Shown in pieces: positions 12,626-41,463 of a stretch of DNA of 41,692 nt (positions are counted from its first letter, which is position 1; every line of letters starts with the position of its first letter). Origin of the DNA: Pseudobdellovibrionaceae bacterium (lineage in GTDB: Bacteria; Bdellovibrionota; Bdellovibrionia; Bdellovibrionales; JAMPXM01); the NCBI GenBank assembly GCA_947462815.1, contig CANHQR010000030.1, positions 1 through 41,692 of the forward strand. Direction: 5' to 3'. The position numbers and the translations under genes are program-made. The notes beneath the pieces are model-generated. The model had not been told where the DNA came from, searched no databases, and was given only the letters and a program-made list of their open reading frames with translations.

Positions 12626-12744
12626 TCTGAGCCTCACGGCACGCACCAACTCCCCTGTCCAATGTTCAGCGACGATTGACGAATGCCTGTCGACAGGAAA
12701 CTAATGAGTTGCTACGAAGGCGACTCGTGGGGAGGGGACAAGCT

Positions 12745-36496: not shown

Positions 36497-39439
36497 TCAA
36501 GGCGTCATATCCCCGGCTTGGATGCGCTTGATGAGTTTCTCCACTTCAGCTTTGTCGGCGGCGTTTGGCAACAGTCGCAGGTACTTGTCGTAGGCCTCTA
36601 TCGCCTCGTCAGCCATGCCGCGTGTATGAAAGATCGCTCCCTGTTCCTTGTAAACGTCGGGGTTCCCCGATTCTAAGGCCTGAGCCTGACGAAGCAAGGA
36701 TTGGGCGGCATCGACATCTCCTGACAGTCGGTAACAGCGCGCCAGCCGCACAAGAATGCTGGCATCGGCCGCCGATTTGACCGCAGTTTGTTTGCGCACT
36801 GAGGTCTGATATTCGGAAGCACAATTCCCGTACTGACGGAGCTCGTAGAAAACCTCAGCCGCCAAGGTGTAGGAGTCCGCGAGATCCGGGTTCGTCTGAC
36901 GTTCTTGCATGGCCTCTTTCAAGGCCTGATCACGCATGCCGAGAGCTAAGTAAGCACGACCCAATGATACATGCGCGAGCGGATAACGCGGATTAATCTG
37001 AATCACGCGTTCAAACTGGGCCACCGCGTCTTTGTACTTTTGCACTTCCGTGTACACACGACCTGCCCAGAAAACCGGTTCCGCGTCCGAAGGATCCAAG
37101 ACAGCTGCCTTCAAAAAATACTCAAGAGCCAATCGTGGCTGAGCATTCCCTTGTAGGATCTTGCCAAGAATCATCAAGGCGGGCTTGTGAGTTTCGTCGA
37201 GACTGATCGCCTGTCGAGCCGCCTCTTCAGCAAGCTTATAGCGCTCATCCTGTAAGAAAATCTCCGCCAGCGTCACGCGATACACGATCGCCGCCAATGG
37301 CACGCCCCGCCCCTGCGTGATGACAAAGCCGTTGATTAAACCGCGCAGATACACGGCCGCCTCGTCCACACCGTGGAGACCAGCTTTGACTTTGGCCATC
37401 AGCGAGTTCGCTTCGATGTGCGTCGGATCGACTTCGAGCGAGCGCTCGGCGTAAGAGCGCGCTTCGACAAACTTTCGTTGGCCCAGCAAAGCCTTGGTCA
37501 TGATGAGGTAGGTATCGAGATCTGTCGAATACAGCTCCAGCGCTCGCTGCGCAAACTTCTCAGCTCCGGCAAAGTTGTTACGACGAAGCTCGACCTGCGC
37601 GAAGCCGCGAAAAACTTCATAGTTCTTCGGCTGGCGTTGCTGAATTCGGGCGAGCAATCGGAATGCGCTTTGGTAGTCGTGACGTTGAGCATAGTAGTCG
37701 GCGAGCTCGACGTAGCCGAGCGTGAGAGTGGGCTCGACATCGATAGCTTTTTTCATCCATTCAATCGCATCTTGCGTTTGGTTGAGCTGCCAAAGGCAGC
37801 GACCTGCTTTGAGTGCCGCCATTCCATTCTTGGGATCGACATCAAAGGCGGCTCGATACTGCGCTTGGGCCGCGAAGCAATCACCCGACTTCACGAACTG
37901 ATCTCCAGCGAAGACCAGCTCGCGACTATTGCCGCGCGTCGATTTGCTCGCATCGCCTCCAAGCTCAACGACCATTTGCTTCGCTTGGGGGTTTGCGGGA
38001 TTGATCTCGAGTGATTTGTTCGCAAAACGCAACGCCTCTTCGCGATTGTTTCTTCGCAAGGCAATCTCGCCGCGAGCCAACCAAGCTTCCGACTCGGTGG
38101 GCGCCGGTGGTCGATCATCTTTCTCAAGGGCGGTGACAAGTAACTGCTGAGCAACATCGACATGGTTGAACTCGCGAAGTTCGATCAGTGCGAGTTCAAT
38201 CTTCGCAACCGAGTGCCGCGGAACTTTGGCCAACACGGATCGATAGGATTTGACGGCTTCACCAAAGGCTCTCTGTCGAGTTTTCGCGCGCGCATAGCCA
38301 ATGTGAATCTTCTGCCAGTCGGGCCAGAGCTGGGCGGCTCGCTCAAAGAACACACCTGCGCTGGAGTAGTCTCGCGTTGAGAGGTAAGCGTCGGCGCGCA
38401 TCTCAAACAGAATCGGTGCACTCGATTCGATTTCTAAACGACTCGATGCCGCTTGCTCGGCTTGCGTGAACTTCGCGGCCAACAGGAGCTGTACGATCTC
38501 ACAGATCGAGCCATTGAGACCACCCGGATCCAAGCCCTTGGCGATTTGCACGGCCTCACGAACCACTTTGATATCTTGAGCGTCTTGATAGGCGTAGGGC
38601 CACAACTCGCGATAAGTGAGACAAAGCATTGAGGCCACCTCAGCGAGTGGAGCCGCTTTCTCAGGGTCGGCAGATCTCCCCTCCAAAACTTCAACGAATT
38701 CACTCTGTGCGGTTTGATATCCACTGTATAGATCTTGCTGGAAGCCGATAACGCCGCGCTGGTACTTCTCGCGGATACGCGCTAATGGCATTTCGGTTTG
38801 CCCCTTGCGAGGCGCGAGAAGGCGAATGCGCTGCCCTTTGCCAACCAAAGGCTCATCCGAAGAACTTAAGAAGTAGCCGATGATGAGGGCAAACAAGACA
38901 ATGATCAGCAAACGGATCTGCTTTCGCCGCGTGGCCTCGGACTGAGCCTCCAGCTCCTCGATTTTCTTGAGGTCCGTCAGTTCAATCACACCCGAGCCAA
39001 AGCCCGTACCGCTCGCTCGACTGCGATCCATCGGCATCAACTCACCCTGCCGCGAGTTCGTTCCGAGCGAAGCCGGAAGCTGTGGATTGGTTTGCGGGAG
39101 AGACTTCGTCGGCGCTTCCGAGGGATCCACAGGCTGTGTCGGTGCCGGAGGATTCACCTGGCGAGTGGTCGATGCCTTTTCAAGCATGACGGATTTTTCG
39201 GGCGTCGCTTTGGACTCATCGCGCTGCTCGAGGGCGTCGAGTAGACGGTCATAGAATTCAGGAGCCTTTGAAATCGCAATCCACCGACCACCTGGATACA
39301 GAGCCACTTGTTCGCCCCCGACGAAGTAGCCTCGATCAATCTGCACAAGAACCTGTTCCGTTGAAAACGGTCCAAAGATATTCCCGTTCGCATCGCGCAC
39401 GATCCAGGTTTTGGCCTTATTTCCGCCGCGATTGCCCAT
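36497..39439 (-). CDS. GYF_2-like / TPR-repeat membrane protein
   Basis: 980 residues. The N-terminal ~70 residues (WIVRDANGNIFGPFSTEQVL to FYDRLLDAL) match the GYF_2-type peptide-binding domain seen in deltaproteobacteria. A Pro/Thr/Ser-rich linker (about 75-150) leads to one transmembrane helix (IRLLIIVLFALIIGYFL, about 175-192). The rest is about fifteen TPR-like repeats, for example ALRFANKSLEINPANPQAKQ and ALEYFLKAAVLDPSDAEPVF. It is a large scaffold, with the GYF domain on the cytosolic side and the TPR array outside, if the helix is a signal anchor. Confidence 0.85.
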   Translation of the reverse strand: MGNRGGNKAKTWIVRDANGNIFGPFSTEQVLVQIDRGYFVGGEQVALYPGGRWIAISKAPEFYDRLLDALEQRDESKATPEKSVMLEKASTTRQVNPPAPTQPVDPSEAPTKSLPQTNPQLPASLGTNSRQGELMPMDRSRASGTGFGSGVIELTDLKKIEELEAQSEATRRKQIRLLIIVLFALIIGYFLSSSDEPLVGKGQRIRLLAPRKGQTEMPLARIREKYQRGVIGFQQDLYSGYQTAQSEFVEVLEGRSADPEKAAPLAEVASMLCLTYRELWPYAYQDAQDIKVVREAVQIAKGLDPGGLNGSICEIVQLLLAAKFTQAEQAASSRLEIESSAPILFEMRADAYLSTRDYSSAGVFFERAAQLWPDWQKIHIGYARAKTRQRAFGEAVKSYRSVLAKVPRHSVAKIELALIELREFNHVDVAQQLLVTALEKDDRPPAPTESEAWLARGEIALRRNNREEALRFANKSLEINPANPQAKQMVVELGGDASKSTRGNSRELVFAGDQFVKSGDCFAAQAQYRAAFDVDPKNGMAALKAGRCLWQLNQTQDAIEWMKKAIDVEPTLTLGYVELADYYAQRHDYQSAFRLLARIQQRQPKNYEVFRGFAQVELRRNNFAGAEKFAQRALELYSTDLDTYLIMTKALLGQRKFVEARSYAERSLEVDPTHIEANSLMAKVKAGLHGVDEAAVYLRGLINGFVITQGRGVPLAAIVYRVTLAEIFLQDERYKLAEEAARQAISLDETHKPALMILGKILQGNAQPRLALEYFLKAAVLDPSDAEPVFWAGRVYTEVQKYKDAVAQFERVIQINPRYPLAHVSLGRAYLALGMRDQALKEAMQERQTNPDLADSYTLAAEVFYELRQYGNCASEYQTSVRKQTAVKSAADASILVRLARCYRLSGDVDAAQSLLRQAQALESGNPDVYKEQGAIFHTRGMADEAIEAYDKYLRLLPNAADKAEVEKLIKRIQAGDMTP

Positions 39440-39606
39440 GACGAGTGGTTCCAGGTTAGGTCCAGTTACCCACGGCGGTTCTAGAACGGAACCGGTGGTG
39501 AGCTCCCATTTTAGGTGGTTATTGAGGCTTTAGCATCACGACTGGCGTCCAGGTTTGATCTGAGTCCTCGTGGATCTCCATCATCGGAAGTCCAGCGCTT
39601 GGCATC

Positions 39607-39951
39607 ATGATTGCTACCCACCATGTGGTGTCCGAAATTCGGATGCCGACGGGTGGTGCTCGTTGGACGGCTTGGGCCTCGAAGAATCCCGCAACGGACA
39701 AATCGAAGCCCCAACCCACAATGCGAAAGCTTCGAAGCGCGACGGAAATAACGACGACAGATGTAGAGGTTACGAAGTTGTTGAAGCTGTTGAAGTTACC
39801 GAAGCCGAAGCTGGAAAAGTTGAAATGGGTGGCGCCGATCCTCATCGTGTCCTACATCCTCGTGATCTTGCTGATCTCGGGCCTGTCTCAGGCTCATATG
39901 AGTGAAGTGAGAGCGAGTCACCCGGCGGTTCCCGTCGACTCTGGCGAGTGA
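39607..39951 (+). CDS. Uncertain short gene with one membrane helix
   Basis: Plus-strand frame of up to 114 codons. The second half is Lys/Leu-rich (KLLKLLKLPKPKLEKLKW) and is followed by a clear membrane helix (VAPILIVSYILVILLISGL). No ribosome site at 39607 or 39721. A minus-strand frame over the same DNA (39519-39845) also looks partly natural (ISDTTWWVAIMMPSAG) and would precede the GYF-like/TPR gene. I cannot decide which is real. Confidence 0.35.
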   Translation: MIATHHVVSEIRMPTGGARWTAWASKNPATDKSKPQPTMRKLRSATEITTTDVEVTKLLKLLKLPKPKLEKLKWVAPILIVSYILVILLISGLSQAHMSEVRASHPAVPVDSGE

Positions 39952-40080: not shown

Positions 40081-40197
40081 GGGAACTGATCCCCCCCTCA
40101 AAAAGATCAGTTCTCAAACTCGGCGTCGATTCAGGACCCCTCCCGAATCGACTTCATAGCCCCGACTCTGGCCCCTCCCGAGTCGGGGTTATTTTTT
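40081..40197 (+). ncRNA. Candidate sRNA with three C-rich-loop hairpins
   Basis: Hairpin 1 (40081-40115): 11-bp stem with one G-T pair, loop CCCCCCTCAAAAA. Hairpin 2 (40125-40152): stem GTCGATTC/GAATCGAC, loop AGGACCCCTCCC. Hairpin 3 (40160-40188): stem CCCCGACTC/GAGTCGGGG, loop TGGCCCCTCCC, then TTATTTTTT. Stems differ in sequence, but every loop holds an anti-Shine-Dalgarno-like C-rich run. The T-run fixes the plus strand. The 5' end is not known. The alternative, that it is only a 3' end for the gene at 39607 or a barrier for convergent murA, does not explain the shared loops. Confidence 0.65.
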
Positions 40198-40206
40198 CCA
40201 CCGAAC

Positions 40207-41463
40207 TCAGAATCGTTCGACGGCTGCGCCAAGTGACGAAAGCTTGTTCTCAAGTTTCTCGTAGCCGCGATCGAGGTGATAAATACGATTCACGATGGTT
40301 TCGCCTCGAGCGGCCAAGCCAGCCAACACCAGACAAGCGGAGGCGCGAAGATCCGTTGCCATGACCGGCGCGCCTTCCAAGCCGCCTGGCTTTCCTCGCA
40401 CAACTGCCACACGCGTCTTCGGCGTGATATCGGCGCCCAGTCGCAACAGCTCCGTGACGTGCATGAAGCGATTCTCGAAGACAGTTTCCGAGATGACCGA
40501 CACGCCTTCACTGACACACATGAGTGACATGAACTGAGCCTGCAAGTCGGTCGGAAACCCCGGGTGAGGCGCGGTGGTAATATCCACGCAGCAAGCTCCT
40601 CCTGAGGATTTGATGCGCACCTGGTTCGGCCCTGCATTAATCTCGTGACCAGCCTCGCGAAGTTTCACCAGCAGGGCATCCAAATCATCGGGCACACAGT
40701 CCGTCACCGTGACATCGCCACCGGCAATCGCTCCCGCTAATAACAGGGTGCCCGCTTCGATCCGATCGGGAATCACACGATGCTGAGACGCTGACAGCGA
40801 CTTTACACCATCGATACGAATGATACTGGTACCAGCACCCGAGATCTTAGCCCCCATCTTGTTGAGATAATTCGCGAGATCAACGATCTCCGGCTCTTTG
40901 GCGGCGTTCTCAATGTAGGTCGTACCCTCGGCAAGTGTGGCCGCCATCATAACATTCTCAGTGCCGCCCACGGTTGCAAACTCAAACAAGATTTGTCCGC
41001 CCTGCAGACGGCCTCCTGGCACCGAGGCGTGTACATATCCGTTCTTCAATTCAATCTCGGCACCCAAGGCTTTCATACCCTCGAGATGCAAATTGATAGG
41101 ACGGCTACCGATCGCGCAACCGCCTGGCAAACTCACCTGCGCCTGGCCGTACTTGGCAAGAAGTGGCCCCAGGCAAAGTATCGAGGCCCGCATTTTTCGA
41201 ACCAAGTCGTAGTGAGCCTCAAAGTTTCCCGGTGCCGCAACCTCGATGATCACACGGTCGCCCTCTCGTCGGGCCTTGCAATTGAGACTTTCAAGCAGAG
41301 CGAAAGAAGAATCGACGTCCTTGAGATCTGGAACATTGCTGAATTCGTGGCGCCCCTCTGCGAGCAGGCTCGCAAAAAGCATTTTGAGCGCGCTGTTTTT
41401 CGCACCGCTGGCCCGAACCTCACCGCGCAAAATTTTTCCGCCGACGACACGCATCCGATCCAT
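40207..41463 (-). CDS. murA: UDP-N-acetylglucosamine 1-carboxyvinyltransferase
   Basis: First committed step of peptidoglycan synthesis: transfers enolpyruvate from PEP to UDP-GlcNAc in the cytosol. 418 residues, the family length, from ATG 41463, chosen because AAGGAG lies 7 nt upstream; a longer frame exists but overlaps prmC. The phosphonate/fosfomycin-reactive Cys is in LPGGCAIGSRP (C116). KNSALKML near the start and ATDLRASACLVLAGL near the end are family motifs. It starts 1 nt after the prmC stop, so the two genes are coupled. Convergent with the sRNA candidate. Confidence 0.97.
   Translation of the reverse strand: MDRMRVVGGKILRGEVRASGAKNSALKMLFASLLAEGRHEFSNVPDLKDVDSSFALLESLNCKARREGDRVIIEVAAPGNFEAHYDLVRKMRASILCLGPLLAKYGQAQVSLPGGCAIGSRPINLHLEGMKALGAEIELKNGYVHASVPGGRLQGGQILFEFATVGGTENVMMAATLAEGTTYIENAAKEPEIVDLANYLNKMGAKISGAGTSIIRIDGVKSLSASQHRVIPDRIEAGTLLLAGAIAGGDVTVTDCVPDDLDALLVKLREAGHEINAGPNQVRIKSSGGACCVDITTAPHPGFPTDLQAQFMSLMCVSEGVSVISETVFENRFMHVTELLRLGADITPKTRVAVVRGKPGGLEGAPVMATDLRASACLVLAGLAARGETIVNRIYHLDRGYEKLENKLSSLGAAVERF

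Follow-up and report, generated by a model that had tools for sequence, protein, structure and literature searches.

The locus analyzed here raises the question whether three tandem hairpins with C-rich loops, found near one end of a 41,692-nucleotide stretch of DNA (the window), form a regulatory RNA, and if so, how this RNA would be expressed and what it could act on. The window is part of contig C30, and the genome it comes from (3.43 Mb) belongs to a family of the Bdellovibrionales. The array looks like an undescribed regulatory RNA, and we consider it fairly probable that the locus is a conserved Bdellovibrionales regulatory RNA gene, which is controlled by sigma-54, encodes a small transmembrane (TM) protein and carries at its 3' end an array of anti-Shine-Dalgarno (anti-SD) loops acting in trans without Hfq.

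Anatomy of the array and conservation of its loops

All three hairpins are located on the plus strand. Hairpin 1 (40081..40115) consists of an 11-bp stem with the 13-nt loop CCCCCCTCAAAAA and has equivalents with different stems in relatives, hairpin 2 (40125..40152) of an 8-bp stem with the loop AGGACCCCTCCC, and hairpin 3 (40160..40188) of a 9-bp stem, extendable to 40156-40192, with the loop TGGCCCCTCCC. The last of these is the stem of an intrinsic terminator, whose T run (40192..40197, plus strand) marks the predicted 3' end of the RNA. Sequence and RNA folding agree with the sequence-only reading, which had described three plus-strand hairpins with CCCCTC(C) loops on unrelated stems of 11, 8 and 9 bp, the third one acting as terminator. 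The predicted folding energy of the array is -55.1 kcal/mol compared to -29.9 +/- 3.5 in shuffled sequences (z = -7.3), and none of 200 shuffles was as low. In the minimum-energy fold, weak pairing of GGA in loop 2 and of GG in loop 3 with the UCC/CC end of the motif leaves these two loops not fully open, and they may be partly self-paired. A pattern of three spaced CCCCTC motifs occurs only once in this genome and its reversed control not at all, and a CCCTC loop was present in none of 175 terminator-like hairpins within 400 kb of one relative. Searches at the array revealed neither a sigma-70 promoter nor an Rfam family at its cutoff. The named records with the closest relatives of hairpin 3 are metagenome-assembled genomes of Bdellovibrionales, Bdellovibrionaceae or Bdellovibrionota.

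Within the family, two to three tandem CCCCTC(C)-loop hairpins with differing stems are found beside murA in all 11 genomes with a readable region, and the triple-CCCCTC pattern is present exactly once, at the murA locus, in 10 of 13 genomes. One further member (G011) has just two hairpins at this position, and G006 and G009, which have no assembled murA, are not among the 11. The convergent neighbour murA itself (40207..41463, minus strand, Pfam EPSP_synthase) is a conserved synteny marker, whose end adjoins the array at most of the loci for which murA sequence is available; in one family genome it is more than 1 kb away. Outside the family, matches of the triple pattern were inspected at eight loci, and none of these eight had such hairpins. 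The same pattern brought up three-copy GAGGGGAAAACGC-like repeats within about 130 bp at three loci (L054, L069, L073) of the unrelated families f9 and f4, which are not hairpins and possibly protein-binding sites.

A comparison of 13 terminal hairpins, 11 from family members and two from another family, revealed an average arm identity of 65% and a CCCCTCC core that is 100% identical. In most stem pairs both sides have changed (C-G to A-T or T-A, G-C to C-G), and only 3 of 117 cells are non-standard. Compensatory stem changes with unchanged loops had been proposed as a check in relatives, and these 13 hairpins pass it. Among 122 hairpins from 62 genomes across the class, which were gathered by a search for CCCTC alone and thus have unanchored flanking positions, C occupies the two flanking positions in 99% and 92% of cases, again giving CCCCTCC. 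The number of hairpins per locus ranges from one to three across the order. All these counts are inflated by the relatedness among the genomes.

A sigma-54 promoter, a small membrane protein and a probable shared message

Upstream of the array we found a sigma-54 (RpoN) promoter (TTGGCATCATGATTGCT, 39599..39615, plus strand), which has the GG-N10-GC arrangement and agrees with 11 of 13 consensus positions; judged from this promoter, the transcription start is expected near 39626. Only one other site of equal quality exists in the whole 41.7 kb window, and the background at that score is about 0.02 sites per kb and strand. A canonical TTGGCAY-N5-TTGCT site precedes the small ORF in 10 of 10 family genomes. 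Furthermore, a sigma-54 site is located 23-221 nt upstream of the TM core at all 68 homologous loci with upstream sequence, 67 of which reach at least 11 of 13 consensus positions, and these 68 loci came from a protein profile alone and not from the promoter or the hairpins. RpoN is encoded in 127 of 141 genomes of the order including that of the window (G000), so that both features of a sigma-54-dependent gene, the GG-N10-GC promoter and RpoN in the same genome, are present.

Further upstream, a GGTTCCA element (39447..39453), which recurs in homologous loci, is a putative upstream activator site and has a degenerate inverted second site (GGTTCTAGAACGGAACC, 39477-39493) nearby. In 59 of 68 genomes GGTTCCA precedes the promoter by 10-240 nt, whereas the best shuffled 7-mer reaches 17, and this placement suggests the layout of an activator-binding site. 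As a separate observation, the palindrome GTTCCANNNTGGAAC is present in one to four copies in 11 of 12 genomes searched, compared to one occurrence in total for the reversed control (L320-L338), often near the starts of secreted protease-like or short DksA-like reading frames. It is possible that these copies constitute a sparse regulon with the type of site seen upstream of the RNA. The idea that this exact palindrome marks other sigma-54 promoters was rejected, because elsewhere in the genomes searched it did not stand beside convincing sigma-54 sites.

The small ORF between promoter and array (39721..39951, plus strand; its start is a candidate, and ATG 39643 is possible as well) contains one transmembrane or signal-anchor segment with a core at about 39817-39909 (...VAPILIVSYILVILLISGLSQA). 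The family core of this hydrophobic segment reads LI..YIVAVLLISGL[SA]RA, the third codon positions of the ORF are the most variable ones, and no Pfam family matched it above cutoff. A small ORF with a single hydrophobic segment lies upstream of the array in every family genome with sequence there. Of 369 genomes of the phylum, the TM-core profile detected a single locus each in 76, namely in 73 of the order and in three of another family of the class, and had no match in the searched phylum genomes beyond the class. For Bdellovibrio-like genomes, structure prediction places an OB-like barrel after the TM helix at moderate confidence (pLDDT 67). Downstream of the core, 62 of the 68 loci have one or more CCCTC-loop hairpins; five of the remaining six keep C-rich loops and one has none. 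On the other side, divergent from the RNA gene, lies a gene (36497-39439, minus strand) whose large product combines many TPR repeats with a GYF-like N-terminus, and this N-terminus keeps its synteny in almost all genomes of the family.

In two genomes the first hairpin is entered by the reading frame of the small ORF, which implies that ORF and array share a transcript there. The sequence-only reading had expected a plus-strand transcript of about 120-200 nt: the strand was right, but the array lies at what would be the 3' end of the sigma-54 small-ORF message and is probably not an independent transcript. Therefore, any small RNA from this locus would be a 3'-end or dual-function RNA. We also considered cis-autoregulation and rejected it, because there is no G-rich site before the small ORF of the window.

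Additional evidence comes from 20 mostly Bdellovibrio-like genomes, in which the ORF itself holds the motif: an Asp-Pro-Leu stretch is encoded by GAY-CCC-CTC and thus contains CCCCTC, and in several of these genomes a hairpin was found around it. Pro-Leu is written CCC-CTC in 20 of 20 cases, whereas in the same ORFs overall the share of CCC among Pro codons is 36% and that of CTC among Leu codons 14%; the genomes span several genera but are related and do not represent 20 independent events. The third position of the preceding Asp codon varies (12:8), and the residue after Asp-Pro-Leu is changeable (P, H, S or L). CCC-CTC is kept in the ORF against codon bias, and we take these codons as the strongest evidence that the RNA loop sequence itself is under selection.

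Genome G039, which we take to be B. bacteriovorus HD100, has the full arrangement of promoter, ORF and hairpins on one contig of 3,782,950 bp, and both hairpins after its ORF are followed by T runs. On the minus strand of this Bdellovibrio-like genome, at about 67.65-68.21 kb, the sigma-54 site occupies 68206-68190, the ORF ends near 67752 and the two hairpins lie at 67740-67707 and 67693-67658. The locus is thus present in the apparent model strain of this predator. RNA-seq of B. bacteriovorus has led to a list of eight attack-phase sRNAs (PMC3627812), and none of them maps to this locus; that screen comprised attack-phase-enriched intergenic RNAs only, and growth-phase ncRNAs could not be defined in the same study. 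If our assignment is true, a deeply conserved B. bacteriovorus sRNA with a defined promoter class would stand beside these eight.

Candidate targets and proposed mode of action

The analysis establishes the anatomy, the conservation, the promoter of sigma-54 type and selection on the loops at the RNA level, and from these we infer transcription, processing, action in trans and the identity of targets. An activator, probably bound at the GGTTCCA sites, would switch on the sigma-54 promoter, and the resulting transcript would encode the small single-TM protein followed by the array of CCCCUC(C)-loop hairpins. The 3' part could then act in trans, either as part of the whole message or freed by RNases, by analogy with alpha-r14/NfeR1, sX13 and CcsR. 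Each loop would pair with G-rich ribosome-binding sites (GGAGGGG, at least GAGGGG), and this pairing would block translation of the target without a need for Hfq. Hfq was sought in 40 genomes of the order and was not found, while the positive controls were detected.

A PLP-enzyme gene in the window had been suggested as target. The site complementary to the loop, GGGAGGGG at 12730-12737 upstream of ATG 12745, is real, but none of the five orthologues detected in the family has it in front of the gene, and this target is not supported. Our genome-wide target statistics are based on counts of patterns and on a 400 kb stretch from one relative: GGAGGGG is located 3-10 nt before an ATG 28 times in this genome versus 5 times for the reversed pattern. 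An over-use specific to GGAGGGG is not apparent, since GGAGGAG start sites are similarly enriched over their reversed control (54 versus 15 in this genome). The genes behind GGAGGGG sites include those for the flagellar hook protein (flgE), flagellin, Flp pilin, a histone-like protein and lipoproteins. An excess of exported proteins, judged by N-terminal hydrophobic segments, was not significant among them (24/53 versus 69/165, p = 0.39). The ribosome site of flgE (CCTAGGAGGGGTT / AACCTAGGAGGGGTT) hardly differs, or does not differ at all, among 12 family genomes and two of family f6, with diverging flanks, and family f9 carries ATGGAGGTC instead; at least one GGAGGAG site, GGAGGAGCGAGACATG in three genomes, looks equally conserved. 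As GGAGGAG behaves alike, the exported proteins show no significant excess and the PLP site is not conserved, the targets named here are candidates. A trans-acting control of translation is plausible by analogy with the described RNAs.

Some observations on single sites are reported here in their own right. The flgE site (L157/L238-L250) ends in the complementary sequences AACC/GGTT and may have a regulation of its own. In G039 (L146), a sigma-54-like site, a copy of TTGGAACC upstream and a GGAGGGG ribosome site all lie within about 90 nt of the start of a flgF-like flagellar rod/hook gene. Furthermore, a small histone-fold-like protein, which resembles the Bdellovibrio histone, has the ribosome site CCTAGGAGGGG in two genomes (L201, L206).

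Other explanations have to be weighed against such a trans-acting loop array. The hairpins might be merely the 3' UTR of the small-membrane-protein message, functioning as tandem terminators or stability hairpins with no role in trans, and both the position of the array directly 3' of the ORF with a terminator at its end and the T runs behind the two hairpins of G039 are in line with this. However, terminators need no fixed loop, the survey of terminator-like hairpins in a relative yielded no CCCTC loop among 175, the loops are fixed while the stems are free, and the motif is held in the ORF against codon bias, which makes this explanation unlikely. It also seems improbable that the CCCCUCC loops are sites for an RNA-binding protein, whether for its titration or as a signal in processing or localisation, and not antisense seeds. 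Multiple copies of a short loop motif on different stems are generally typical of protein-titrating RNAs and our tests gave no conserved target, but the motif is anti-SD-like and the closest described RNAs of the same layout act by base-pairing. GGA loops of the CsrA type would require transcription of the opposite strand, and a CsrA sponge there was rejected, as the minus strand has no promoter and no T run and GGA is not constant.

The convergent murA kept at most loci could also point to an RNA that regulates this gene as cis-antisense or by convergent transcription. We regard this as very improbable, because the terminator of the window ends before the murA stop, the two are more than 1 kb apart in one family genome, and the stems vary freely, whereas an antisense RNA would not fix the loops alone. 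Finally, three similar loops within about 120 nt might arise by chance or by local repeat duplication; with unrelated stems and the same layout in distant genomes this is refuted by conservation and has practically no probability left, and the earlier proposal of selection on the loops instead of repeat duplication holds.

A more far-reaching version of the trans-acting loop array is possible but rather doubtful: a dual-function RNA under sigma-54 control, spread over a whole order without recognisable Hfq and written partly inside the ORF in Bdellovibrio-like genomes, would combine a small membrane protein with several anti-SD loops that compete with ribosomes at G-rich starts, for instance those of the genes for flagellar hook, flagellin, Flp pilin and histone, and might serve as a switch in the predatory life cycle.

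Comparison with known C-rich-loop RNAs

The Rfam models nearest to stretches of the array are all C-rich-loop sRNAs and all stay below their cutoffs; together with the literature, this supports the suggestion that sRNAs with anti-SD loops are the best described parallels. The actinobacterial 6C RNA and staphylococcal sRNAs with UCCC loops likewise direct C-rich hairpin loops at G-rich sites, but they belong to other phyla and differ in the details of the motif, and the Rfam 6C model has no match at the array. A close parallel in layout is alpha-r14 (RF02344; NfeR1 of Sinorhizobium meliloti), in which one anti-SD motif is likewise shared by the loops of all three tandem hairpins, although their stems differ greatly in sequence (PMC10746234). 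Its covariance model spans the whole array of the window with the last hairpin on the terminator (35.4 bits, E 7e-5, cutoff 58.8) and reaches 36.8 bits at L108, again below 58.8. Three hairpins with identical loop motif and variable stems are found in the window as well, but the alpha-r14 loop motif CCUCCUCCC is replaced by CCCCUC(C), and the sigma-54 promoter, the upstream small ORF and the different phylum are further distinctions. The sX13 RNA of Xanthomonas (RF02232) resembles the array in its three C-rich-loop stem-loops but has no ORF; it is Hfq-independent and represses mRNAs with G-rich motifs (PMC3771888). Its model scores 37.1 bits at one homologous locus (cutoff 50) and has no match in the window. 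These sub-threshold matches to alpha-r14 and sX13 are a resemblance in layout and not family membership.

The CIN1 locus of Rhodobacter sphaeroides is similar in its gene order, with a small-protein gene, tandem C-rich-loop hairpins and a terminator under an alternative sigma factor, and CcsR1-4 are encoded together with CcaF1 on one such transcript (PMC10253847). CcaF1, however, is a DUF1127 RNA-binding protein under RpoHI/HII, whereas the locus described here lacks DUF1127 and has an unrelated TM protein, with its small ORF and hairpins behind a sigma-54 instead of an RpoH promoter. At CIN1 the sRNAs are separated by RNase E processing. The class-wide RNA gene described here looks new, and its proposed functional kind is already known; new is also the combination of a sigma-54 promoter, a small membrane protein and a CCCCUCC loop array, with a loop in the coding sequence of some genomes. 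If this holds true, the Bdellovibrionota join the lineages that use C-rich-loop sRNAs, with a loop array that would be expressed from a sigma-54 promoter together with a small membrane protein, in genomes where Hfq was not found, which suggests that one loop-array design has been invented repeatedly.
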